A DNA stretch of 64,000 nt from Aquidulcibacter paucihalophilus (lineage in GTDB: Bacteria > Pseudomonadota > Alphaproteobacteria > Caulobacterales > Caulobacteraceae), in NCBI GenBank assembly GCA_030285985.1, contig CP127384.1, positions 1,352,501 through 1,416,500 on the forward strand, in the 5' to 3' direction. Position 1 is the stretch's first letter. Each line of letters starts with the position of its first letter. Shown here piece after piece: positions 2,218-4,285 of this stretch. The position numbers were made by a program, and so were the translations under genes. Below the pieces are notes generated by a model. That model was not told the DNA's origin. It searched no databases and saw nothing but the letters and a program-made list of their open reading frames with translations.

Positions 2218-3683
2218 TGGCCGCTGTCCAGAAGACCATCGACGCCGTCGCCGCGCTGGAGAAGTACGAGCACGGCTTCACCTCGGACATCGAGATGGAA
2301 TACGCCCCCAAGGGGCTGAGCGCCGACATCGTCCGCTTCATCTCCGAGAAGAAGGGTGAGCCGGAATGGATGCTGGAATGGCGTCTGGCCGCCTATGAGC
2401 GCTGGCTGGCGATGGAGGAGCCGACCTGGGCGTCGGTGAAATACACGCCGGTCGACTATCAGGACCTGTTCTACTACGCCGCGCCGAAGGAGAAGGCGGG
2501 GCTGAAGTCGCTGGACGAGGTCGATCCGGAGATCCTCGCCATCTACGCCAAGCTGGGCATCCCGCTGAAGGAGCAGGAAGTGCTGGCGGGCGTCGAGGGC
2601 GCGGCGCGCTACGCCGTCGACGCGGTGTTCGACAGCGTCTCGGTGGTCACCACCTTCAAGGCAGAGCTGGCGAAAGTGGGTGTGATTTTCATGCCGATTT
2701 CCGAGGCCTTGCGCGAACATCCTGAGCTGGTGCGCAAATATCTGGGGTCGGTGGTGCCGGTCTCGGACAACTATTTCGCGGCCCTGAACAGCGCTGTCTT
2801 CAGCGACGGCTCGTTCGTCTACATCCCGCCGGGCGTGAAATGCCCGATGGAGCTGTCGACCTATTTCCGCATCAATGCGAGCCAGACGGGGCAGTTCGAA
2901 CGCACCCTGATCATCGCCGACAAGGGCAGCTACTGCTCCTATCTGGAGGGCTGCACGGCCCCGATGCGCGACGAGAACCAACTGCACGCTGCGGTGGTCG
3001 AACTGGTGGCGCTGGACGACGCCGAGATCAAATATTCGACGGTCCAGAACTGGTACCCCGGCGACGCCGAGGGCAAGGGCGGCATCTACAACTTTGTCAC
3101 CAAGCGCGCCGACTGCCGCGGCGACCGGTCGAAGGTGTCATGGACCCAGGTCGAGACCGGCTCGGCCGTGACGTGGAAATATCCGTCCTGCATCCTCAAG
3201 GGCGAGGAGAGCTCGGGCGAATTCTATTCGATCGCCATCACCAACGGGCATCAGCAGGCCGACACCGGCACCAAGATGATCCATCTGGGCAAGAATTCGA
3301 AGAGCCGGATCATCGCCAAGGCGGTCTCGGCGGGCAAGTCGGACTCGACCTATCGCGGCCTGGTCTCGGTGCATCCCAAGGCGACGGGGGTGCGCAACTT
3401 CACCCAGTGCGACAGCCTGTTGATCGGCAAGGACTGCGGCTCGCACACCGTGCCCTACATCGAGGCCCGCAACGGCTCGGCCCAGCTTGAGCATGAGGCG
3501 ACGACGACGCGCCTGTCGGATGACCAGCTGTTCTATGCGCAGCAGCGCGGCCTGTCGCAGGAGGAGGCGGTGGCCCTGCTGGTCAACGGCTTCGTCCGCG
3601 ACGTGATGCAGAAGCTGCCGATGGAGTTTGCCGTCGAGGCGCAGAAGCTGGTGGCGATCTCGCTGGAGGGGTCGGTCGGATGA
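2217..3683 (+). CDS. sufB: Fe-S cluster scaffold protein SufB
   Basis: A 488-residue core subunit of the SufBC2D scaffold, where Fe-S clusters are assembled in the cytosol. The beta-helix core with conserved [16 protein letters not shown] and [11 protein letters not shown] segments is complete, and the C-terminal helical part ([20 protein letters not shown] and onward) is typical. The start is the ATG at 2217, overlapping the desulfurase stop; a longer upstream extension in the same frame lies inside that gene and is ignored. The protein ends [10 protein letters not shown] at 3683, and a second copy of this decapeptide with its stop occurs at 4253-4285. Unlike the other junctions in this operon, sufB is not directly joined to its next gene: a repeat/GIY-YIG cassette intervenes. 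Confidence 0.97.
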
Positions 3684-3693
3684 CCCCCCACAC

Positions 3694-3726
3694 TCCGTCA
3701 TCCTCGGGCTTGTCCCGAGGACCCAT
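3694..3726 (+). repeat. 33-bp palindromic repeat, copy 1
   Basis: A 33-bp unit starting 11 bp after the sufB stop. Its core CCTCGGG-CTTGT-CCCGAGG forms a 7-bp stem with a 5-nt loop. Identical copies lie at 4104-4136 (same orientation) and 4213-4245 (inverted). It resembles the short dispersed palindromic elements common in intergenic regions of alphaproteobacterial genomes. Confidence 0.9.
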
Positions 3727-3734
3727 GGTACGGC

Positions 3735-4082
3735 ATGCTCACAACCATGAGCAGAGAGCGCGTCCTGATCGCCGTCTACATCATGACCAACGCGCCGTAC
3801 GGCACGCTGTACGTTGGGGTGACGAGCAATCTGTACAAGCGCGTCTATCAGCATCGCGAGGGAACGTTCGGCGGCTTCACCAGCAAATACGGGCTGAAGC
3901 GGCTGGTTTGGTACGAGACCTTCGAGTTCATGACCACTGCGATCAAGCGCGAGAAGTCGATCAAGCGGTATCTGCGCGACTGGAAGATCAATCTGATCGA
4001 GCGCGACAATCCGCATTGGGAAGACCTGTCGCTGGACTGGAATCGCCCGGCGGTGTGGACGCACGGGCCGACGGACGAGTAG
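3735..4082 (+). CDS. GIY-YIG nuclease family protein
   Basis: A 115-residue single-domain GIY-YIG protein. The N-terminal strand motif VYIMTN is followed by TLYVGVTSNLYKRVYQHRE, which matches the LYVGVTSDLxxRVxQH signature of the small stand-alone UPF0213/YhbQ-like GIY-YIG group. EKSIKRYLRDWKINLIE and NPHWEDL complete the usual C-terminal part. ATG 3735 is chosen; ATG 3747 (MSRERV) is an alternative, and neither has a clear ribosome binding site. The gene interrupts the otherwise continuous suf operon, lies between identical 33-bp repeats, and is less GC-rich (104 of 180 bases at 3781-3960) than its neighbours. Nuclease activity is predicted from the fold only. A mobile or repeat-associated role is inference. 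Confidence 0.88.
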   Translation: MLTTMSRERVLIAVYIMTNAPYGTLYVGVTSNLYKRVYQHREGTFGGFTSKYGLKRLVWYETFEFMTTAIKREKSIKRYLRDWKINLIERDNPHWEDLSLDWNRPAVWTHGPTDE

Positions 4083-4103
4083 CTCTCTCCAGCATTCCCC
4101 TCA

Positions 4104-4136
4104 TCCGTCATCCTCGGGCTTGTCCCGAGGACCCAT
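4104..4136 (+). repeat. 33-bp palindromic repeat, copy 2
   Basis: Identical to copy 1 over all 33 bases and in the same orientation, 21 bp after the GIY-YIG stop codon. With the inverted copy 3 it forms a 142-bp unit (4104-4245) with 33-bp terminal inverted repeats. A shorter inverted pair, GTTCGTG (4155-4161) and CACGAAC (4177-4183), lies within the unit, so its transcript could fold into one long structure, like a MITE or BIME. Confidence 0.9.
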
Positions 4137-4212
4137 CGTTCCTCGGCGTGGCTGGTTCGTGCTTGCCGCACAAGTTCACGAACACTGACCTACGGTACGT
4201 GCACGCTGACAA

Positions 4213-4245
4213 ATGGGTCCTCGGGACAAGCCCGAGGATGACGGA
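4213..4245 (-). repeat. 33-bp palindromic repeat, copy 3 (inverted)
   Basis: Exact reverse complement of copies 1 and 2. It ends seven bases before the second copy of the sufB 3' end (4253-4285), so it marks the right border of the inserted cassette. Confidence 0.9.
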
Positions 4246-4252
4246 ATTTAAG

Positions 4253-4285
4253 GTGGCGATCAGTCTGGAAGGGAGCGTGGGGTGA
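4253..4285 (+). pseudogene. remnant copy of the sufB 3' end (ten codons plus stop)
   Basis: These 33 bases encode [10 protein letters not shown] and a TGA stop, the same ten residues that end SufB at 3651-3683. Twenty-four of 33 bases match, and all nine differences are synonymous: two Ser codons differ as TCG/AGT and TCG/AGC, with single changes in Glu, Val and Gly codons. The identity ends one base upstream of the block, near the inverted 33-bp repeat. The stop overlaps the GTG of the next gene (GTGA, 4282-4285), the same coupling used elsewhere in this operon, so this was probably once the true end of a sufB gene. No start codon or body belongs to it now. Confidence 0.75.

Follow-up and report, generated by a model that had tools for sequence, protein, structure and literature searches.

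A variable gene slot between sufB and sufC, and the displaced gene ends found in it, in Caulobacteraceae

Why should a bacterial operon carry the end of one of its core genes twice, in two different spellings? The question is raised by a stretch of 64,000 nucleotides from Aquidulcibacter paucihalophilus (contig CP127384.1, positions 1,352,501 to 1,416,500), referred to here as ‘the window’; coordinates are counted from its first letter, and features lie on the forward strand unless stated. Within it, sufB (2217..3683), an open reading frame (ORF) of 488 codons, closes with the tail that it uses (3651..3683), and another version of the same tail stands at 4253..4285, beyond a gene for a GIY-YIG nuclease and directly before a gene of 85 amino acids, ‘g85’ (4282..4539), whose stop abuts the ATG of sufC (4540..5289). 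We argue that the sufB–sufC junction is probably a ‘slot’ with many alleles, in which a small resident gene is swapped by recombination. Incoming modules would bring substitute ends for the core genes, and the old ends would stay behind as the start signals of the old residents.

The first, in-use tail is termed type a (GTGGCGATCTCGCTGGAGGGGTCGGTCGGATGA) and the displaced one type b (GTGGCGATCAGTCTGGAAGGGAGCGTGGGGTGA). Both encode the same ten residues and a stop; they differ at 9 of 33 bases, always synonymously, and two of the differences are serine codons switched between TCN and AGY, all as a sequence-only reading of the stretch had stated. The two ends share GTGGCGATC and 24/33 bases overall, and a repeat search lists them as a direct repeat (D4, 35 nt, 74%). 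Tail a ends in a stop–start overlap; tail b holds GGAAGGGAG at 4267–4275 and a GTGA overlap, in which its stop meets the GTG start of g85. Between the tails lie the left copy of a palindromic repeat (3694..3726; I1/D1), the nuclease ORF of 115 amino acids (3735..4082; Pfam PF01541, E 3e-13), in which an in-frame ATG at 3747 agrees with the start of the relative in locus L011, a middle copy of the repeat (4104..4136; D1/I2), a right, inverted copy on the reverse strand (4213..4245; I1/I2), and the join to the displaced tail, ATTTAAG (4246..4252), which has the same spacing in L011 and L028. The outer copies form a perfect 33-bp inverted repeat, to which the middle one adds a third copy; the repeat search and the ORF list thus agree with the earlier remark that the second tail stands near such a repeat and overlaps the next gene's GTG. 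A single frame of 201 codons, the ‘bridge frame’ (3680..4285 in the ORF list), runs from an ATG overlapping the sufB stop to a stop overlapping the g85 start, and is +2 relative to the GIY-YIG frame. That the insertion kept sufB intact by supplying a 3' end also holds, for sufB reads through tail a to its stop. The window genome is a single 3.1 Mb contig, and an assembly artefact is unlikely because L011 and L028 have the same layout with other guests, down to the 8-base distance of the second copy from the repeat core GACGG.

Is the second copy a genuine sufB end? Among 131 genomes of the genus, 129 gave a match to sufB (G068 and G074 did not); four with partial matches lacking the sufB end (G049, G064, G096 and G123) were left out, and 125 genus loci were compared. 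The second copy scores 34 against sufB-end queries, as against 10 or less in 100 shuffles of the gap, and tail b is identical in 33/33 bases to the working sufB end of 14 of the 125 loci. Chance similarity and drift are therefore rejected as its source, which disposes of the possibility, raised with the original observation, that the ten-residue match arose by accident, and upholds the claim that the copy is not drifted junk. The recoding itself, real as it is, proves to be ordinary here: all 125 loci encode the same ten C-terminal SufB residues, in 75 distinct DNA ends including the stop. Tail a is unique to the window genome among these loci, and its nearest match (20/21 tail bases) is in L016, the locus that also has the nearest sufB. 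The b-type end GGAAGGGAGCGTGGGGTGA, with at most one mismatch, occurs at 48 places in 46/131 genomes, all of them at the sufB–sufC junction by coordinates; it was found neither outside the slot in the 131 genomes nor in a reversed control.

Comparison across loci points to a slot that extends through the family. A slot is counted as ‘occupied’ when the sufB–sufC gap is at least 100 bases. The loci from other genera were the best 80 of 159 non-genus family genomes, representing 17 of 21 other genera; 79 of the 80 were usable (L153, with no sufB in its stretch, was dropped), and sufC was matched in 199/199 family genomes searched. By this definition 90/125 genus loci and 62/79 loci of the other genera are occupied. 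The gap ranges from 9 to 2085 bp in the genus (n = 125), the 35 empty loci having 9–21 bases with one exception of 88, and from −1 to 797 in 28 loci from other families of the class. Of two control junctions, the one before sufB measures −1 to 4 bases in 30/30 loci, and sufC–sufD is mostly overlapping (median −4, n = 114), with 11 loci at 100 bases or more.

The residents of occupied gaps, or ‘guests’, are varied. Across genus and family loci, 190 guest ORFs fall into 69 sequence clusters, of which 40 have a single member; about a dozen clusters look spurious by eye (bridge frames and pieces of sufC), and several families are combined in each of the two biggest. A guest ends within 10 bases of sufC in 77/90 genus and 43/62 family loci. 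Twenty guests scanned singly gave five Pfam matches at E 0.01 (ParE toxin, 2OG-Fe(II) oxygenase, GIY-YIG-like MUG113, DUF1330 and Imm32), and 29 further guests at most four, among which ComJ, glyoxalase and a weak SUR7 are named. With Imm32 in 1/20, ComJ among the 29, and one weak PADLOC hit, the case that immunity or defence genes are stored in the slot is weak. The GIY-YIG passenger proposed by the sequence-only reading is real, and on sequence comparison it shares with many other passengers a variable slot that extends through the family. ParE-like guests adjoin sufC, with antitoxin-like partners, at 11 loci (L029, L032, L033, L047, L050, L052, L071, L080, L086, L122 and L178); the Pfam match of this cluster is that of the L029 member, and 7/11 of the loci also hold a displaced sufC head of the kind described below.

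The two guests of the window differ in their distribution. g85 occurs in 1/131 genus genomes (the window genome, G000) and has no Pfam match; a set of 5.8 billion proteins holds 31 examples, the window's own counted. An 81% homologue is labelled uncultured Brevundimonas, and g85 occupies the same slot in an Asticcacaulis metagenome-assembled genome. In the same slot of other genera, the guest of L168 is a possible distant relative (hhalign probability 71%, 51 columns), as is, by eye only, that of L197. GIY-YIG genes number six in the window genome, the slot copy counted; the five other paralogues (L002–L006) are about 50% identical, and the flanks of at least four of these five look palindromic by eye, with other sequence types.

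How often do guests change? Comparison of genome pairs shows turnover, with a different small resident in nearly every species. The guest cluster is common to 3/61 pairs at 95–97% sufB identity, 25/244 at 93–95%, 91/1567 at 90–93%, 67/1106 at 85–90% and 28/676 below 85%, so that sharing stays at 4–10% of pairs in every band from below 85% to 97%. The nearest occupied relative has the same guest cluster in 13/86 cases, and under parsimony the sufB/sufC tree requires at least 23 changes between the occupied and the empty state. Of three guest families sought in the 131 genus genomes, g85 is present in 1, a 96-amino-acid family in 6 and a 78-amino-acid family in 7. By coordinates, none of the three has a copy outside the slot in these genomes.

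Comparison likewise reveals displaced ends of the flanking genes inside the slot. Displaced sufB tails are present in 4/90 occupied genus loci (L007, L011, L028 and L064), and displaced sufC heads, consisting of 45–122 bases of the sufC 5' end, in 9/90. In L011 the displaced tail no longer encodes the SufB residues (it reads VAMCLEGSVG); the part comprising the Shine–Dalgarno (SD) motif and the stop–start overlap is unchanged. In L064 (genome G130) a row of guests is split by three short relay ORFs made from sufC heads; in two of the three, the head is joined in frame to a sufB tail. Relatives with the same resident and no GIY-YIG gene were compared for three residents, a check that had been suggested for element-free strains. 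In all of them sufB runs directly into the guest, no second tail was found in the 11 loci compared, and 11/11 sufB ends are closer to the displaced than to the first copy: 27/33 versus 23/33 for the one g85 relative (Asticcacaulis), 27–31 versus 22–26 of 33 for five relatives with the 78-amino-acid resident, and 26–31 versus 20–22 of 33 for five with the 96-amino-acid resident. This match is partly non-specific to the resident because b-like ends are common in occupied loci, and it gives support rather than proof.

The sufB end also differs between occupied and empty loci, its recoding being linked to occupancy. Codon changes were profiled in the 117 loci with enough sequence to either side; the tree left out the sufB tail, and expected numbers were taken from the same amino acids elsewhere. 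In occupied lineages, the last seven sufB codons changed 159 times against 74 expected, a ratio of 2.15, which exceeds all 104 other windows scored (highest 1.62); in empty lineages, they changed 32 times against 35.5 expected, a ratio of 0.90. Forty subsamples of 35 occupied loci gave a mean ratio of 1.65 (1.32–2.09), compared with 0.82 for the 35 empty loci. A strict SD-like motif is found in the tail of 83/90 occupied and 1/35 empty loci, and sufB stops at TGA in 82/90 and 10/35, respectively; the Fisher values for motif and stop overstate independence because the loci are related. On these sequences the tail may serve twice, closing SufB and signalling where the guest starts. Directly before the hypervariable tail, sufB codons Q-13 to A-9 (3642–3656, CAGAAGCTGGTGGCG) show the opposite, in occupied lineages only: synonymous change at 0.37 of expectation, versus 1.03. 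In Caulobacter, an IscR peak has been reported at the end of sufB (PMC11475020).

A further regularity concerns the reading frames between the two core genes. An unbroken chain of ORFs was sought from the sufB stop to the sufC start, each start lying from 14 bases before to 12 after the preceding stop, and gaps shuffled in two-base blocks served as the control. Such a chain is present in 86/90 genus and 60/62 family occupied loci, and in 12% and 14% of the shuffled gaps. Most of the excess is explained by true genes, and a chain of ORFs able to pass ribosomes from sufB to sufC is a new regularity. The GIY-YIG elements allow a sharper look. In each of the nine slot loci with this gene, exactly one forward frame spans the whole element, with no stop in eight and one near the end in L030, and a start codon where sufB stops leads into it: ATG or GTG at position −4, or TTG at −8. 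Inside the GIY-YIG gene, 9/9 slot copies have no stop in the +2 frame, compared with 5/26 copies retrieved from elsewhere (a subset of those that exist) and 1/7 non-slot copies of the same subfamily; random recoding of the gene leaves this frame open in 8%. The nine slot copies are related, and are not nine independent trials. An overprinted protein is not supported. Third-position differences of the GIY-YIG frame make up 57–73% in eight slot pairs (58–82% in pairs elsewhere), a dominance that marks this frame as the conserved protein. Across those eight pairs the GIY-YIG protein changes least, and the +2 product, whose differences are 1.8 to 4.3 times as large, is not conserved. As for the displaced sufC heads, each of the 11 relay ORFs built on them (42–52 residues; eight loci, plus the three in L064) has a stop that overlaps the start of what follows, although they were picked from chains, which favours such overlap.

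Open frames also cross the next junction. Between sufC and sufD, 11 loci (L008, L014, L019, L024, L027, L056, L089, L090, L106, L120 and L128) carry palindromic inserts of 127–193 bases, in three sequence groups. A frame is open from the sufC stop in 11/11, and in 10/11 (L089 is the exception) it ends in RTGA overlapping a start codon in the sufD frame. Shuffled inserts are open in 18–60% and the inserts are related within groups, which makes them supporting rather than conclusive. Handover of ribosomes, or the keeping of Rho off untranslated RNA, would each select for open frames. Extending this thought, we put forward, tentatively and at somewhat less than even chances, that the slot is an integrase-free cassette site gated by translation. 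Entry into the suf operon, for horizontally exchanged genes as for leftover gene ends and palindromic elements, would depend on ribosomes passing unbroken between its core genes; frames without a conserved product would be kept open as bridges, and gene-end fragments would survive as relay ORFs of 42–52 residues.

By what route might modules enter? New ones would arrive inside the end of sufB or of sufC, not between the two genes, and replace the sufB tail on the left-hand side or the sufC head on the right-hand side. The likeliest mechanism is homology-facilitated illegitimate recombination, in which a long stretch of homology within sufB or sufC anchors the incoming DNA on one side while a few bases suffice for the join on the other; ready-made modules could later be exchanged by ordinary homologous recombination. 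The old tail or head would be retained because it provides the old resident with its ribosome-binding and stop–start coupling signal. In the window, on this account, a sufB tail with the GIY-YIG element would have been placed before an older unit consisting of tail b and g85. The sequence-only reading had offered two ideas for the duplication, and recombination with divergent strains, by some such route, is the better of them.

Several observations weigh against this picture, and against the coupling of translation attached to it. The 62 occupied loci from other genera yielded no displaced end, and six of the nine slot carriers of the GIY-YIG gene have no displaced tail; L007, L011 and L028 share the spacing of their joins, and so may represent a single event. 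No recombination event has been observed, and the joins, read by eye, offer a few bases of plausible microhomology. Nearest neighbours switch in a mosaic fashion along sufB and sufC, which made it impossible to identify a donor from identities scored section by section and leaves donor and resident indistinguishable in the window genome; an a-like tail is already present in L016, which has the nearest sufB. With a looser SD pattern, 90/90 occupied and 35/35 empty loci gave a match, and the strict pattern was set after the sequences were viewed, so that the motif comparison is descriptive. The ORF chain is absent from 4/90 genus and 2/62 family loci, and coupling is no absolute need because empty loci have a short spacer, not coupling, before sufC.

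Three other explanations deserve comparison with the exchange of modules. The GIY-YIG element might be a homing cassette like the mobile endonuclease ORFs (mORFs) of fungal mitochondria, whose nuclease would cut element-free sufB ends; repair would copy in tail a with the nuclease gene, and self-cutting would be prevented because tail a is recoded and the upstream half has been lost at tail b. The architecture is that of the Glomus atp6, atp9, cox2 and nad3 hybrids, which also show synonymous differences (PMC3630166). Nine of 16 members of the GIY-YIG subfamily (at least 63% identity) lie in the slot, and in three genomes, each with a resident of its own, the displaced tail follows at an identical distance. 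Of the other seven members, which are located outside the slot, four have internal stops, and no duplicated flanks were found around these seven by a DNA test that also misses the slot's own recoded duplication and so decides nothing. As a signature of the element, tail a gave a mixed result: the pattern GAG-GGN-TCN-GTY-GGN is present in 6/9 carriers versus 6/112 others, having been chosen after the carriers were seen, and the mean tail identity of carriers is not above that of random sets (0.701 versus 0.765, P 0.91). Displaced ends also occur in loci with no GIY-YIG gene, and on balance we consider homing unlikely.

Local duplication of the sufB tail within the lineage, as a ribosome-binding site for g85, followed by synonymous divergence, would suit the position of the copy as leader and stop–start coupler before that gene. 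It sits poorly with a copy that matches the sufB end of 14 other loci exactly and departs from its own upstream tail at 9/33 bases, and with a layout shared by L011 and L028; a leader, moreover, need not keep ten codons, and the L011 copy no longer does. We regard it as very improbable. Site-specific recombination, whether by an integrative element like e14, as the sequence-only reading had suggested, or by an integron-like cassette array, would explain why a gene receives a substitute 3' end and why L064 has tandem modules; no recombinase is known to act on the two sufB ends. The 602-bp element, though, contains no ORF of the size of a recombinase or integrase (the ORF list has the GIY-YIG ORF and the bridge frame), the b-type end was found in the 131 genomes at the slot alone, as noted above, and so were the three resident families tested. 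With guests so close to sufC, little room is left for an attC-like site, although no attC scan was made. There was no match in phages; plasmid matches cover 12–23% of the query (10 listed of 49 records), none reaching 80%; and viral contigs lacked the exact sufB-tail pattern. The insertion does not look like an e14-type element, and we give the recombinase explanation hardly any credence.

How does module exchange at the slot relate to systems already described? The fungal mORFs of Glomus resemble it in that an element-borne C-terminal end is set on the host gene, an endonuclease ORF follows, and the native end is displaced downstream; the endonuclease is of the GIY-YIG type in atp9, and part of the cases show synonymous differences (PMC3630166). 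Allomyces atp6 is cited there as the first case of a mobile endonuclease ORF with a foreign C-terminus. The present case differs in being bacterial, in that the displaced end is the start signal of another gene, and in that passengers other than nucleases share the slot; the architecture is alike, and membership in the class is not claimed. In the effector–immunity displacement arrays of the Vibrio cholerae type VI secretion system, with their orphan Rhs ends (PMC5361080), a one-sided homology anchor has been proposed, and a new module pushes the old gene end and its downstream gene along. The hallmark of such arrays, an old gene end before the old downstream gene, is seen here for the sufB tails (L007, L011, L028 and L064) and, mirrored, for the nine sufC heads. 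Here, however, the setting is an iron–sulphur (Fe-S) assembly operon, the small genes are unrelated, and the ends of both sufB and sufC are displaced. Small variable segments between conserved genes (PMC2884548) are similar as short variable DNA between core genes for which homology-assisted illegitimate recombination was proposed; the slot differs as one fixed site, to which three tested families are confined in the genus, with an open reading chain. Genes between sufB and sufC have themselves been reported, namely a small ORF in C. crescentus (PMC11475020) and momL in Muricauda olearia (PMC5484670), both co-transcribed with suf. In their accessible portions these reports treat single cases, and do not describe turnover, displaced ends or bridge frames; nor did searches on the slot, its mechanism or relatives, and on translation bridges list any open-licence paper with slot turnover or bridge frames in its title or displayed abstract.

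For the family, then, the slot suggests a route by which bacteria could swap genes within a core operon with no dedicated recombinase: the passenger carries substitute ends for the genes it interrupts. It offers an explanation of why a gene that is otherwise conserved should vary so much, yet synonymously, where it ends, and its 152 occupied loci, with dozens of gene families, form a natural set of tolerated insertions from which to gauge what a polycistronic mRNA accepts. If the bridge rule is true, some open frames without a conserved protein would be kept for the sake of translation itself, which would bear on gene prediction, on the evolution of operons and on the design of synthetic ones.

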